DNA from: a virus | Direction: 5' to 3' (one strand) | Virus record (IMG/VR): IMGVR_UViG_3300032242_002041 | Location: 1 to 64,000 of that record | DNA length: 64,000 nucleotides | Shown here: positions 51,773-58,200 of the stretch, one piece after another | How positions within the stretch are numbered: the first letter of the stretch is position 1 | How the letters are laid out: each line of letters starts with the position of its first letter | Notes under the pieces: generated by a model | What the model saw: the letters and a program-made list of their open reading frames with translations, nothing else | The model's database searches: none | What the model was told of the DNA's origin: nothing | Translations under genes and position numbers: made by a program

Positions 51773-53971
51773 TTATCTAGCAGAGTTTTGCGCTTGCTTT
51801 TTGCTGTTATCATCAATGTTGGCTAATCGACGATCCATAGATTGTAGCGCACTGTTTAACGTACCTAAAATTTCTTCACTGTGATCTGTGCGACTAGCTT
51901 CTTGATTGGCTTTTGCTACTTCTTTTTCAGGTAAAGTGGCATTAGGTTTTATTGCGGCTAGCTTGTTGTCAAAACTGTTCTTGGGGCCTGCCAATAATTC
52001 TGATCGAGCATCCTGTGCGGTTGTTTTGGCTTGACCAGCCAATAATTCTGATCGAGCATCCTGTGCGGTTGTTTTGGCTTGACCAGCCAACAACTCTGCA
52101 TTGGCCATTCTGGCACCTGTTTCGGTGCCAGCCGACCGTTCGTATAATCTATCTACTAGTTGAGCAGCCTGGGCCGCTGTTTTAGCTTGACGTAATTGAT
52201 CGCCGGCTCGTTTTTCAGTATTTTTAAGTTCATAGTCAACAAACTTTAGTTGCTCTTCGAGCGTAGAGTCTTTTAATGTTTTGCCCATGACTCGTTCAAA
52301 ATTGGCCTGGCGATCTGGGTGCCACTGTGCAACTCCCTTGGCTTTGCCACCATCGCCCACAGCATTGATGTTTAAATTCTTTCCAGATTCTTGTTGTAGG
52401 TTCCCTACAATTCCAGCGGCTTGTTCTTTGGTCCAGCCGGCACTTTGAAAGAATTTCATTGCGGTGTCGGCATTTTGACTTGAGCCAGCCCCTTGCCCGC
52501 CAAACGTTTTAGCAGGGCCGCCACCTATGCCCTGGGTGGATGCTATATTTCCTGGTGCTACTCCAGCAATTTTGTTGGTTACTTTGGATAATGCTTCCAA
52601 TGATGTAGTAGCTGGGTTTACACCCATTGTAACAAAACTTTGTAGAGAATCTCTACTCTTCATCTGGTTAATACGCAGTTCAACCTGTGCTTTGGTGTTA
52701 GGATCTAGGCCTTTTTGTTGTAGCTCTTGTTGAGCCTTGGCCAAATCCTCTTGTTGTTTCATACTAACGTCGGTATTACGAGATAAGATTCGACTACGTG
52801 TTTCAGCATCGTAGACTGCGTCGTCCATTGCTCCGTTAAACTTGTACATGCTGGCCATGCCAGATTCGTCAAATTGTTTCATGCCGGCTGTTAGTTTATC
52901 CATTCCAGCGGCTGCTTTAAAGTTTTTATCTTGTGTGTACAGTGCAAATTCACTCATTCCCATGGTCATCATCTTGCCACTTGCACTAACATCTCCGCCA
53001 ATACTTCTCCAATAATCTTTTTGTAGTGCTGGAGAAGTTTTTAGCATATCAGACATTTTGATATATTCGTCGGCTAAATCTAGTGATGCTTGGTCTCCCT
53101 TTTTCCTTAGCTCGTAAATGGTTTGATTAAACGCATTTTCAGCCATGGCTTGATTTCTATTTTCTTGAAGGGCCTCTGCACTTTCGCCTGTGAGCTTGCT
53201 CATTAAATCTAACTGCTTGATATACTCAGCACTTCTGGCAGCTAGATTTTGTTGTATGTTTGTTGATGTTACTCCAGACATTTGCTGTTGTTTAACAAAC
53301 ATAGCTATACCACGATTTATATCATCGGGTGTTTTGCCCAACATCTGTAATGATTTACCTACATCACTACGTTGTATCTGTGAGGCTGCATCGGCAAATG
53401 CTCTGGTTCCGCTAGCAGCAGTGCCACCAAAAGATGCCAGTGCCGCACTGTTCTCTTTGATTATTGCAGTCATTTGGTCTAGTTGTTCAAAACCATAACC
53501 TAACTTCTGCATGTTGGCAGTAATTTCTGTCATGCCACCAGCAGCGGCTGCACCTGATTTACTTAAATCTTGATAGGCTTTAAATACCGCATCACTCTGC
53601 TTGTTTACTGTTTTAAGTCCTTCGGCAAATACGCCCACAACTTTGCTGGCTGCAAACAAGCCTGCTTTAAGCAAAGCAGATCCGGGAATAATAAGAAGAA
53701 GAGCTTCTAGTCCACCAGCAAGCGAATCTATGGCGCCGTTCATTGCCGACATGCCTTGCTCGCCCTTATACATGGCCTTGGTAAAGTCTACAACTCCTTT
53801 GCCCATTTTTGACTGGGCGTCGGCCATTGCTTTAGAGTAGCCTTTGAGACCTTTTTCGGCATCTTTCATGGCATTAGCCATTTCCTGAGTTATAGGAGTG
53901 CCAGATTTGATTGCGTTATTATACGCTTCAAATATGCCTTGGATTTCTTCCGGGGTGTATTGATCAGCCAT
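51773..53971 (-). CDS. Tail tape measure-like protein with tail lysozyme domain
   Basis: I choose ATG 53971 (MADQYTPEEIQGIFEAYN), 5 nt after a GGTAAATA box; a longer frame overlaps the divergent gene. The 732-residue protein is helical and Ala/Met/Lys-rich with a hydrophobic stretch near residues 80-125 (LEALLLIIPGSALLKAGLF). Residues about 510-640 (FFQSAGWTKEQAAGIVGNLQ, then GVAQWHPDRQANF) match phage tail lysozyme domains, which cut peptidoglycan. A 16-residue repeat (LLAGQAKTTAQDARSE) follows. It is placed next to a gp26-like gene, as tape measures often lie beside their chaperones. Confidence 0.75.
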   Translation of the reverse strand: MADQYTPEEIQGIFEAYNNAIKSGTPITQEMANAMKDAEKGLKGYSKAMADAQSKMGKGVVDFTKAMYKGEQGMSAMNGAIDSLAGGLEALLLIIPGSALLKAGLFAASKVVGVFAEGLKTVNKQSDAVFKAYQDLSKSGAAAAGGMTEITANMQKLGYGFEQLDQMTAIIKENSAALASFGGTAASGTRAFADAASQIQRSDVGKSLQMLGKTPDDINRGIAMFVKQQQMSGVTSTNIQQNLAARSAEYIKQLDLMSKLTGESAEALQENRNQAMAENAFNQTIYELRKKGDQASLDLADEYIKMSDMLKTSPALQKDYWRSIGGDVSASGKMMTMGMSEFALYTQDKNFKAAAGMDKLTAGMKQFDESGMASMYKFNGAMDDAVYDAETRSRILSRNTDVSMKQQEDLAKAQQELQQKGLDPNTKAQVELRINQMKSRDSLQSFVTMGVNPATTSLEALSKVTNKIAGVAPGNIASTQGIGGGPAKTFGGQGAGSSQNADTAMKFFQSAGWTKEQAAGIVGNLQQESGKNLNINAVGDGGKAKGVAQWHPDRQANFERVMGKTLKDSTLEEQLKFVDYELKNTEKRAGDQLRQAKTAAQAAQLVDRLYERSAGTETGARMANAELLAGQAKTTAQDARSELLAGQAKTTAQDARSELLAGPKNSFDNKLAAIKPNATLPEKEVAKANQEASRTDHSEEILGTLNSALQSMDRRLANIDDNSKKQAQNSAR
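51990..52085 (-). repeat. Perfect 48-bp tandem duplication in the tape measure gene
   Basis: Two identical 48-nt copies (51990-52037 and 52038-52085), with a partial third, encode 16 residues each. Perfect identity suggests a recent event or one under conversion. Confidence 0.85.
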
Positions 53972-53976
53972 AATTA

Positions 53977-53984
53977 TATTTACC
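53977..53984 (-). promoter_or_regulatory. Late-promoter-like box GGTAAATA, 5 nt from ATG
   Basis: The box lies exactly 5 nt before ATG 53971 of the tape measure gene, in the 26-nt divergent gap with the gp26-like gene. Confidence 0.45.
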
Positions 53985-53997
53985 GAGGTAAGAAAAC

Positions 53998-54837
53998 ATG
54001 AATCTAAACAATCCACTTAAACAGTATTTTAGACAACCGGCAATCTACGTCCGACTGCCCAGTCAGGGTCAAAGTTACCCTGCAGGTGCTCTAACCATGC
54101 CACCAACAGGCGAATTACCAGTGTATCCAATGACTGCCATTGACGAAATTACCTATCGTACACCAGATGCGTTATACAATGGACAAGCCACAGTCAACGT
54201 AATACAAAGCTGTATTCCTGATATCAAAGATGCTTGGGCAGTTCCTTCTACCGACACCGATACCCTGTTAATAGCTATACGCATAGCCACCTACGGGCAT
54301 GATATGGATTTTGGCACTGTTTGTCCATCCTGTAGAAAAGAGTCAGAACAAACATTGGATTTGCGTAATGTCTTGGATTCTATGCGTCCAGCTGATTATA
54401 GTAAAACTGTACAGGCTGGCGATATGGAAATATTTTTCAAACCATTGAATTACAAGAATATCAATGACAACAACGCAATACAGTATGAAAATCAAAAACT
54501 CTTACAGATGTTGCCCGATACTGCTGTACCCGACGCTGAAAAAATGACAGCCTTGACTGCTGCTTTAAAAAGAATTACCGATATTACAGTAAGTGCAATT
54601 GGACAAAGTATTTCTGCAATAAAAACTCCACAGGCTTTGGTCAACGAGCCTGCTTTCATTGAAGAATTCTTAACAAATTGTGATCGAAAACTGTTTAATC
54701 AAATTCGTGATTTTATTATCAATCTCAAGGTTAATTCAGAAATGCAACCACTTAAGATAACATGCCCTGATTGTAATCACACATACGAACAAAGTATTAC
54801 ATTGGACATGTCCAGTTTTTTCGGGTCCGCCTCTTAG
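53998..54837 (+). CDS. gp26: gp26-like baseplate hub/tape measure chaperone
   Basis: The 279-residue protein matches the T4 gp26 family: LPSQGQSYPAGALTMPPTGE, YPMTAIDEITYRTPDAL and VQSCIPDIKDAW-type VIQSCIPDIKDAW. It has two CxxC pairs, C109/C112 (CPSC) and C256/C259 (CPDC), which may bind zinc. In T4, gp26 and gp51 are needed for hub assembly and are thought to act on the tape measure. GAGGTAAG precedes the start. Its end carries the T-TTT-TTC slippery heptamer described below. Confidence 0.8.
   Translation: MNLNNPLKQYFRQPAIYVRLPSQGQSYPAGALTMPPTGELPVYPMTAIDEITYRTPDALYNGQATVNVIQSCIPDIKDAWAVPSTDTDTLLIAIRIATYGHDMDFGTVCPSCRKESEQTLDLRNVLDSMRPADYSKTVQAGDMEIFFKPLNYKNINDNNAIQYENQKLLQMLPDTAVPDAEKMTALTAALKRITDITVSAIGQSISAIKTPQALVNEPAFIEEFLTNCDRKLFNQIRDFIINLKVNSEMQPLKITCPDCNHTYEQSITLDMSSFFGSAS
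54816..54822 (+). promoter_or_regulatory. Slippery heptamer T TTT TTC
   Basis: The heptamer is in the correct zero-frame phase (agT TTT TTC) 8 nt before the in-frame TAG of gp26. An imperfect stem (TCTGA..CCA with TGG..TCAGA, 54846-54875) lies about 24 nt downstream. Confidence 0.6.
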
Positions 54838-55052
54838 TCTCGACATCTGACCAGATTAGCAAGATGGTTGATCAGATGGAAAAAGACACAGTTAATATCA
54901 GACGAGAGGCGTTGCAAATGGCCTGGTATATGCGTGGAGGATTGTCTTACGATCAAGCTCTGCAGCTCAGCGTCAGTGAGCGTACATTAATCAGCGAATT
55001 AATTAAAGAAAACTTAGACACCACCAAAAAATCAGGATTACCTTTTTTCTAA
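54816..55052 (+). CDS. Predicted -1 frameshift extension of the gp26-like protein (gp51-like position)
   Basis: At T TTT TTC (54816-54822) the gp26 frame can slip by -1 into a frame open to 55052, adding 76 residues and making a 351-residue fusion. If read alone it would start at ATG 54864 (MVDQMEKDTVNIRREALQ), with no good Shine-Dalgarno. The extension is helical and includes YMRGGLSYDQALQLSVSE and ELIKENL. Tail chaperones of lambda (G/T) and P2 (E/E') use such a shift, P2 at T TTT TTG. Position after gp26 is that of T4 gene 51. Confidence 0.65.
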   Translation, partial: FFRVRLLVSTSDQISKMVDQMEKDTVNIRREALQMAWYMRGGLSYDQALQLSVSERTLISELIKENLDTTKKSGLPFF

Positions 55053-56742: not shown

Positions 56743-57171
56743 TTAAATTTTGTTTTTTATGTGACTTCCATGTATACGGCACACAATTTGTCCGTTATAA
56801 TAGTCGTCTGATTCTAATACTCTATGATTAAATTGTTCTCTGGCTTCAATATAACTACATTCTGCTTTTGATTTACAATAAAATAATATTTCTCTTGTAA
56901 AGTTGTCGGCGCCCTGCGCTAGAATATCTTGGTTGAGTTGATCGTTGCTTCCATAGTATAGTTGCCAGTCTGAGTCTATTTTGCTTTTTATTTTCTTACG
57001 TTTTTTGTTGCCGTTTTTTAATTTTACTACCTTGTATGAGGTTTTACTAAATTTTGCTAATTTTTTTCCAATATATTTTCTGCCAGTTATGTTATTTGTA
57101 ATCAAATAAACAAAGCCGACACAGTCTTCGGGTAGTGTTTCAATTTGTGTGTTTTCGTAAAGCCATACCAT
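56743..57171 (-). CDS. GIY-YIG endonuclease, SegE-like
   Basis: The 142-residue protein has GFVYLITNNITGRKYIGKKL (the GIY-YIG pair VYL and KYIGKK), a Lys-rich insertion (KLKNGNKKRKKIKSK) and YYGSNDQLNQDILAQG followed by FTREILFYCKSKAECSYIEA with the catalytic Glu region. This order fits SegE-type endonucleases in T4-like phages. It lies 18 nt from the second radical SAM gene, in the convergent gap. No strong promoter is visible. Confidence 0.82.
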   Translation of the reverse strand: MVWLYENTQIETLPEDCVGFVYLITNNITGRKYIGKKLAKFSKTSYKVVKLKNGNKKRKKIKSKIDSDWQLYYGSNDQLNQDILAQGADNFTREILFYCKSKAECSYIEAREQFNHRVLESDDYYNGQIVCRIHGSHIKNKI

Positions 57172-57189
57172 GGACTTATAGTTATCATA

Positions 57190-58200
57190 TCACCACTCGG
57201 TTGCATATTTTTCATCCACTTTCGTATCAGAACACTTGGTTTGACATTCTTGCCAACGAAATGTTTTTAATTCTGCTGTCCAAAACGGATCAGCTATTAC
57301 ATCTAATAAGGTTCTAGTATGTAGATCAAACTGTTCAGCCAGAGTTTGCCACTCACTGTTGTGCCCGTATCGGTTGGCTACCCAGCAACAAGGAAACAAT
57401 CTACCACGAGCGTCTATGTACAAGCCCTTGTTACCAATTTCACACAAAGGTTTAACGCCGTTGATCTCAGTCGCCGACTTGTACAATTGTATATTTTTTT
57501 CGTTTACACGATTGTTAATGCCACGTGAGCTTAACAGTATAACATCTCTTTCAAATCTATGCGACCCGCTGACAAACTTACGACTAGGTTCCAACGGATC
57601 ATCAATGCCGTAACTGGGATAAACACTGCCAAATTTGGTAGAACGTGTAAGTTGAAATGCATCCATGCCCAGTTTCGTTGCTAAAGATTTCATATAGTCA
57701 ACGTGATCTTCGTTGAACTTAAAGGCTATAGCGGCCCACACCAATCGACACTTGCTTACGGCTCTTAGAGTTTCAATTCCCAGCACGATTGATACAAAAT
57801 CACTGTTTACACGATATAGATTATTACTGGCGTTATCGTAACCGTCTACGCTAAAATGCACTGTGTCTTGATCTGTTAACACAGAGCCTAGCCCTTGCCA
57901 CCATTCAGGCTTCTTGTGTGAACCATTGGTAACAATAACTATCTGCACAGGTTTAATGCGTTTGATATACTCAATTACAGGAATAAGATCGTGTGCATAT
58001 ATAGGGTCGCCATCATCGCCACAGAATGTAATTTTCTCAACATTTTTTAATATAAAATCTTCTGTAAAGTTACGTTTAAAGAACGCTAAATCTAATTCAG
58101 TATTAACTAACCCATTGGGAACTTCCTGCCGGGCGCACCGAGGGCACCGTAAGGTACACTTACTGCTGATCTCAATATGGAAGTGCCAAGTTGCTAACAT
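57190..58200 (-). CDS. Radical SAM enzyme with SPASM/twitch-like end
   Basis: The 336-residue protein carries C15, C19 and C22 (KCTLRCPRCARQ), the radical SAM cluster motif, then FCGDDGDPIYAH (a GGEP-like loop) and HFSVDGYDNASNN. Near the C-terminus GVKPLCEIG, LFPCCWVANRY and ECQTKCSD give the cysteines of a SPASM or twitch domain, which binds extra iron-sulfur clusters. Such enzymes usually modify peptides or proteins. It starts within the stop of the upstream gene, so it is coupled to the methyltransferase-like genes. Confidence 0.85.
   Translation of the reverse strand: MLATWHFHIEISSKCTLRCPRCARQEVPNGLVNTELDLAFFKRNFTEDFILKNVEKITFCGDDGDPIYAHDLIPVIEYIKRIKPVQIVIVTNGSHKKPEWWQGLGSVLTDQDTVHFSVDGYDNASNNLYRVNSDFVSIVLGIETLRAVSKCRLVWAAIAFKFNEDHVDYMKSLATKLGMDAFQLTRSTKFGSVYPSYGIDDPLEPSRKFVSGSHRFERDVILLSSRGINNRVNEKNIQLYKSATEINGVKPLCEIGNKGLYIDARGRLFPCCWVANRYGHNSEWQTLAEQFDLHTRTLLDVIADPFWTAELKTFRWQECQTKCSDTKVDEKYATEW

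Follow-up and report, generated by a model that had tools for sequence, protein, structure and literature searches.

Does the gp26-like gene of a T4-related virus encode a single protein, or two proteins that share a start and differ in their ends? In the window, i.e., the whole stretch of 64,000 nucleotides analyzed here, this gene has a run of T residues near its 3' end and is overlapped by a second open frame. Programmed -1 frameshifting is well established in tail assembly chaperone genes, including lambda G/GT and P2 E/E', and the lambda G and GT proteins are known to coat the tape-measure protein. Levin 1993, Christie 2002 and Xu 2004 are among the references on such frameshifts given in PMC12859696. 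The locus in the window very probably follows the same principle and would represent a -1 programmed ribosomal frameshift by which a T4-related phage reads its tail assembly chaperone gene in two ways. The case for this rests on patterns of sequence conservation, which we set out below together with the competing explanations.

The gp26-like frame encodes 279 amino acids, and its 3' end reads ATG TCC AGT TTT TTC GGG TCC GCC TCT TAG. The heptamer T_TTT_TTC is in phase for a tandem -1 slip and covers the Phe-Phe codons 274-275. The sequence-only reading of this DNA had called the heptamer phase-correct, and both the phase and the position hold, although the spacing to the gp26 stop TAG (54835-54837) is 12 nt and not the 8 nt initially given. 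Starting 58 nt 5' of the gp26 stop codon, the -1 frame stays open up to its own stop and adds 76 residues past the Phe-Phe (RVRLL...LPFF), as had also been proposed. The products would be a short form of 279 amino acids and a predicted long form of 351 amino acids. Coordinates of all features are collected in Table 1.

Table 1. Features of the predicted frameshift locus in the window (columns: feature, position, strand, basis or remark).
gp26-like gene, short form of predicted tail assembly chaperone	53998..54837	+	PF12322, phrog_150, model vs BFVD
Slippery heptamer T_TTT_TTC	54816..54822	+	kept in 111/112 distinct sequences
-1 frame extension	54822..55052	+	stop TAA 55050-55052; helical model
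Predicted stimulatory stem, 5' arm	54828..54835	+	5 nt past heptamer, reaches first base of gp26 stop codon
Stem 3' arm, outer 8 pairs	54904..54911	+	pairs with 54828-54835
Stem inner part, 5' side	54837..54840	+	4 pairs with 54900-54903
Stem inner part, 3' side	54900..54903	+	pairs with 54837-54840
Tape-measure / tail lysozyme gene, divergent	51773..54016 (start codon provisional)	-	Phage_lysozyme2, phrog_9570

The gp26-like protein matches PF12322 (T4_baseplate, E 3.5e-15) and phrog_150, annotated as baseplate hub (E 2.2e-16). It is the single PF12322 match in the IMG/VR virus record of 228,286 bases that contains the window. In BFVD, the predicted structure (pLDDT 84.4) is matched by a T4-like hub assembly protein (E 4e-23, TM 0.91). 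The extension was modeled as four helices (pLDDT 87.8, pTM 0.60), and a fold search of the PDB with both models returned no match at E<=0.001. No Pfam family was found for the window's extension at E<=0.1. Among 31 members of the extension, matches to Pfam were scattered and weak; the commonest match to PHROGs was the functionally uncharacterized family phrog_18291 (5/31), with phrog_634 and phrog_150 found once each (E 0.03-0.045). Four cysteines of the gp26-like protein (109, 112, 256 and 259) form the pairs CPSC and CPDC, which are invariant in alignments of 20 and 28 rows and are reminiscent of a split zinc ribbon. Cys pairs are also present in T4 gp26 and gp51.

As had been proposed, the chaperone gene adjoins a tape-measure gene, which lies on the opposite strand. 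The encoded tape-measure protein carries a tail lysozyme domain (Phage_lysozyme2 1.1e-30; phrog_9570 7.8e-36), and the same divergent layout of chaperone and tape-measure genes is found in SNUABM_47. Near the C-terminus of the tape-measure frame (~51986-52096, minus strand), a 16-residue repeat, ELLAGQAKTTAQDARS, is present in two full copies plus the start of a third. Further along the window, two more minus-strand frames were inspected by eye for motifs. The frame at 56743-57171 resembles a GIY-YIG endonuclease, and the frame at 57190-58200, with CxxxCxxC near its start, resembles a radical SAM enzyme.

The bare heptamer is common in the window, with 20 occurrences on both strands compared to 14.5 expected and 11/100 shuffles reaching an equally high count, and conservation was therefore taken as the test. 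A gp26 scan of viral contigs (best 80 of 247 relatives) recovered an in-phase heptamer with an open -1 frame at 80/80 loci, including one locus (L003) where the -1 frame ends at the contig end. Later scans, combining an N-terminal pattern (best 80 of 595) with smaller searches and covering many of the same contigs, found the in-phase heptamer at 87/88 loci. These site counts leave out one locus that meets the contig end (L218) and the loci retrieved for gene 51 (L178-L215). Reduced to distinct gp26 coding sequences with the window included, the heptamer is in phase in 111/112. The -1 frame is open for at least 140 nt beyond the stop in 110/111 of the heptamer-bearing scan sequences, and the remaining one meets a contig end. 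An enlarged set has the heptamer in 124/125 sequences, of which 13 are named phage records added after their heptamer was seen. The base after the heptamer is G in 123/124 sequences.

The conservation extends to the choice of codons. TTT followed by TTC encodes the slip Phe-Phe in 62/62 sequences at <95% identity, and the slip Phe codons are the sole columns without synonymous change among 82 conserved ones (Met and Trp excluded), with the next best column at 89%. The heptamer is retained at protein identities to the window as low as 25%. The extension itself provides an internal control, since it ends in Phe-Phe in 106/123 complete sequences, where identical residues on the same transcript have a free choice of codons and TTTTTTC is used in only 3/106. 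The same count disposes of a second candidate slip in the window. An in-phase TTTTTTC at 55043-55049, with the ATG of the next gene (55052) in its -1 frame, was rejected given that only 3/106 relatives keep the codons, and its occurrence is probably due to chance.

The exception among the later loci, L220, is 100% identical to residues 1-251 of BUCT608 gp26. From contig position 1501 on, it departs from the pattern: its T run differs in length from that of L219, the in-phase heptamer is missing and the gene continues in another frame. The difference could be either an assembly error or a real variant, and heptamer-bearing copies exist alongside (L219 and L092). PA5oct and BUCT608 gp26 used as queries against viral contigs retrieved 3 and 2 loci, respectively.

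Selection also acts on what lies beyond the slip site. The -1 peptide begins with FFR in 123/124 heptamer-bearing sequences, and the sixth residue is Leu in 123/124. From the gp26 stop up to extension codon 16, the -1 frame has a pN/pS of 0.61 for the 25 sequences of the window's clade and of 0.48 for the 31 sequences of a second clade; the other frames yield 1.07/1.20 and 1.02/1.15 over the same stretch. Beyond codon 16, pN/pS of the -1 frame is 0.27-0.39. Judged by these substitution patterns, the extension is under protein-level constraint ahead of its first usual start codon. The comparison of homologues suggested by the sequence-only reading revealed a near-invariant heptamer, slip codons held against synonymous change, a -1 frame that stays open and protein constraint over the junction.

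Frameshift sites of the XXXYYYZ type are expected to have a stimulator 5-9 nt past the heptamer. The stem predicted in the window's clade begins 5 nt past the heptamer and was assessed in an alignment of 21 sequences, 20 of them distinct. In this alignment, 88.3% of stem cells are paired versus 36.7-54.6% in slid versions. The covariation score of 0.182 exceeds that of shuffles (0.122; 0/500 as high) and of slid versions (maximum 0.108), where the shuffles ignore relatedness and the structure derives from the very sequences tested. Without guidance, RNAalifold recovers nine of the twelve pairs. Neither the pairs with two-sided change (2) nor additional pair types are more numerous than in shuffles in this clade. 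Pairing is incomplete at some positions, with pair 13-96 lacking in 6, pair 22-88 in 7 and pair 25-85 in 10 of the 20 rows. Pair 54834/54905 is C-G in 13 distinct rows, U-A in 6 and unpaired in 1, and the C-G label changes at least 3 times on the gp26 tree. In four relatives (L030, L032, L033 and L034), the 5' arm GCCTCC is kept and is paired with a nearer GGAGGC in single-sequence folds.

The second clade (31 sequences) instead has a compact hairpin predicted from 6 nt past the heptamer, with 88.9% of cells paired and eleven of its pairs recovered unaided by RNAalifold. Two-sided cells number 19 compared to 4.9 in shuffles of the same kind (0/500 as high), while pairs with two-sided change number 4 compared to 3.0 (154/500 as high), and additional pair types are not above shuffles here either. 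For the two clades, covariation score and two-sided cells lie above all 500 shuffles and above every slid version. In 64.5% of all 124 sequences, the best-stem score ranks within the top 5% of mononucleotide shuffles. Among 17 individually listed sequences, the window, Atu_ph07, Phosso, PA5oct, L095, L096, L216, S-SZBM1 and PX29 reach the top 5%, and SNUABM_47, 121Q, SCTP-2, ACG-2014a, S-RIM2, S-P4, S13 and BUCT608 miss it. The stem is therefore clade-dependent. In both the window's clade and the second clade, the predicted structures start 5-6 nt past the heptamer, which is where a downstream stimulator would be placed. A covarying downstream stem in two clades supports the slip interpretation beyond what had been predicted for this locus. 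Three features of the XXXYYYZ class, namely an in-phase heptamer, an open -1 frame under selection and a putative downstream stimulator, are found together at this site.

The second frame might alternatively be a gene in its own right, expressed from ATG 54864 or 54876 by re-initiation or coupling. Annotators do call distinct small ORFs in isolates such as SNUABM_47, 121Q and Phosso. Extension codon 20 is an ATG in 23/25 rows of the window's clade and 21/31 rows of the second clade, and in part of the group-2 relatives codon 3 is an ATG that overlaps the stop. Some -1 frame start codon is present upstream of, or early in, the extension in 73/124 sequences, so that extra internal initiation might occur in these. 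However, 51/124 sequences have no ATG, GTG or TTG before extension codon 16 or upstream in the -1 frame, and in 6 of these the first start codon appears at codon 30 or later. The FFR..LL residues ahead of the usual start codons are conserved. Shine-Dalgarno pairing amounts to 0.0 kcal/mol at ATG 54864 and a weak -4.4 kcal/mol at ATG 54876, compared to -7.3 kcal/mol at the gp26 start, which agrees with the earlier view that the second ORF lacks a good ribosome-binding site at ATG 54864. Two independent genes would also leave the synonymous invariance of the heptamer unexplained. We therefore consider separate genes an improbable explanation.

Slippage could also occur during transcription, given that six T followed by a C might let RNA polymerase produce transcripts of altered length, and the run does differ in length in one contig (L220). 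A plain T run would require neither the retained final C and the G that follows in 123/124 sequences, nor a stem. The covarying stems 5-6 nt downstream in two clades resemble the arrangement at ribosomal slip sites. We consider polymerase slippage even less probable than separate genes. The last alternative holds that the genes overlap with no slip at all and that Phe-Phe together with local composition maintains the heptamer. The abundance of TTTTTTC in the window would fit such a coincidence, but the same two residues keep these codons in 111/112 sequences at the slip site and in 3/106 at the end of the same ORF. A conserved coincidence is therefore barely credible.

Under the preferred explanation of a ribosomal -1 frameshift, we infer the slippage and how efficient it is, the movement of the tRNAs and the role as a chaperone. 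Most ribosomes would end at TAG 54835 and release the short form. Some ribosomes would pause at the stem 5 nt past the heptamer, where two Phe-tRNAs could slip back by one base, from TTT-TTC to TTT-TTT. Translation would then continue in the -1 frame to 55050 and yield the long form, whose C-terminal part is predicted to be helical. If the models of lambda G/GT and P2 E/E' apply, the two forms might coat the tape-measure protein at a constant ratio while the tail assembles. The likeness to these systems consists of a short protein with a -1 extended form, a nearby tape-measure gene and a slip site shortly before the first ORF closes. The window differs in its protein, which has invariant Cys pairs and belongs to PF12322, a family of T4-like phages, in the divergent orientation of the tape-measure gene and in a stem enclosing a loop of ~60 nt.

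The distribution of the site was further surveyed in 21 named phage records, which were hand-picked and hence a non-random sample. The heptamer and an open -1 frame are present in 13/21: Atu_ph07, Phosso, SNUABM_47, PA5oct, 121Q, Salicola SCTP-2, BUCT608, S-RIM2, S-P4, ACG-2014a, S-SZBM1, Aeromonas PX29 and Cronobacter S13. These span cyanophages, jumbo phages and two Straboviridae. The proposal that a T4-like phage uses the strategy of siphoviruses and P2 is supported, but this range of hosts for the site means that the strategy is not peculiar to the window's phage. In T4, Aeromonas SW69-9, Banach and K14-2, genes 26 and 51 are separate, and TTTTTTC is absent around the gene 26 end. K14-2 carries another in-phase heptamer, TTTAAAG, whose -1 frame closes after 29 nt. 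Serratia Kevin, Dickeya JA15 and Salmonella moki, all Ackermannviridae, and Vibrio K386 (together L224, L225, L226 and L090) have an open -1 frame and NTT TTC without the heptamer. The sequence-only reading had held that relatives keeping the second ORF and losing the heptamer would speak against a frameshift. A combination that partly fits this description was encountered only in these distant relatives.

T4 gp26 (8.8e-64) and gp51 (3.9e-52) each align with the entire PF12322 model and are therefore paralogues, with gp51 being longer at the C-terminus. The family is shared with the window protein, and the C-terminal addition of gp51 resembles the end of the window's extension. Using hhalign, the end of the extension aligned with the gp51 C-terminus with a probability of 62% over 31 columns, and of 45% over 30 columns with 21 gp51 sequences; the jumbo gp26 profile against gp51 reached only 6% and 24%. 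The alignments are weakly suggestive of homology between the extension end and the gp51 C-terminus. A natural reading would be that in T-even phages the long form became fixed as a separate gene. In contrast to the window, both genes of T4 are complete and its gene 26 lacks TTTTTTC; downstream of gene 26, gene 25 occupies the -1 frame in both T4 and SW69-9. Genes 26 and 51 of T4 had been described as separate, which is correct, and as lying at the same place, whereas they are divergent and do not form a tandem pair there.

The site also recurs in cyanophages (Kyanoviridae). All four examined have TTTTTTC 10 nt before the stop and a -1 frame beginning FFRxAL, although the extension is shorter and in three of the four no stem ranks within the top 5% of shuffles. 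They also differ in annotation, as the second ORF is recorded as a separate baseplate hub assembly catalyst in the four cyanophages and is named gp51 in two of them. Cyanophage ORFs of 31-63 aa (L221, L222, L223 and L229) are annotated as hub assembly catalyst (gp51). These ORFs look like frameshift tails of gp26 rather than independent genes.

The assignment of the T4 gp26/gp51 family to tail assembly chaperones (TAC) follows Vladimirov, Gautam and Davidson 2022 (Virology, PMID 34826709), a study of T4-like chaperone genes whose title suggests a mechanism other than frameshifting. A passage in PMC10885494 citing this work states that some T4-like phages instead have one short gene beside a long one that is fused. 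A passage in PMC12846349 cites the same work when stating that TAC-N genes of T4-like phages have poly-T slip signals, and the frameshift principle in T4-like phages is hence probably already in print. The chaperone frameshift of Vandenendeviridae and Andersonviridae (phage Adele), as presented in PMC12846349, involves the motif GTTTTT and other phage families. Among the matches listed in our literature searches, titles and the starts of abstracts contained no description of the jumbo-phage site, and no description of the stem was among the matches listed. The word "frameshift" is absent from the main text of the Atu_ph07 paper (PMC6102473), and an SPP1 paper (PMC6316719) contains both this word and TTTTTTC. 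We claim as new only one more member, the breadth of the measured conservation and the stem, and priority cannot be claimed.

Taken jointly, these observations could be explained if the TTTTTTC frameshift were ancestral for the chaperone pair of the T4 superfamily and had been kept in jumbo phages, cyanophages and some Straboviridae. T-even phages would have replaced the frameshift by duplication, with gp26 as the short and gp51 as the frame-fused long copy. The window's clade would have added a long-range stem, of which the 3' arm moved in L030 and L032-L034 while the 5' arm and the heptamer remained fixed. We see this scenario as evenly balanced between holding and failing. Should it hold, much of the T4 superfamily would make its chaperone pair by one conserved -1 slip, and a likely intermediate between the strategy of lambda and P2 and the two genes of T4 would be at hand. 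Many cyanophage "gene 51" database entries would then be frameshift tails and not genes, and the annotation of short "gene 51" ORFs would be corrected. The locus would also offer a reporter target with a clade-specific stimulator.
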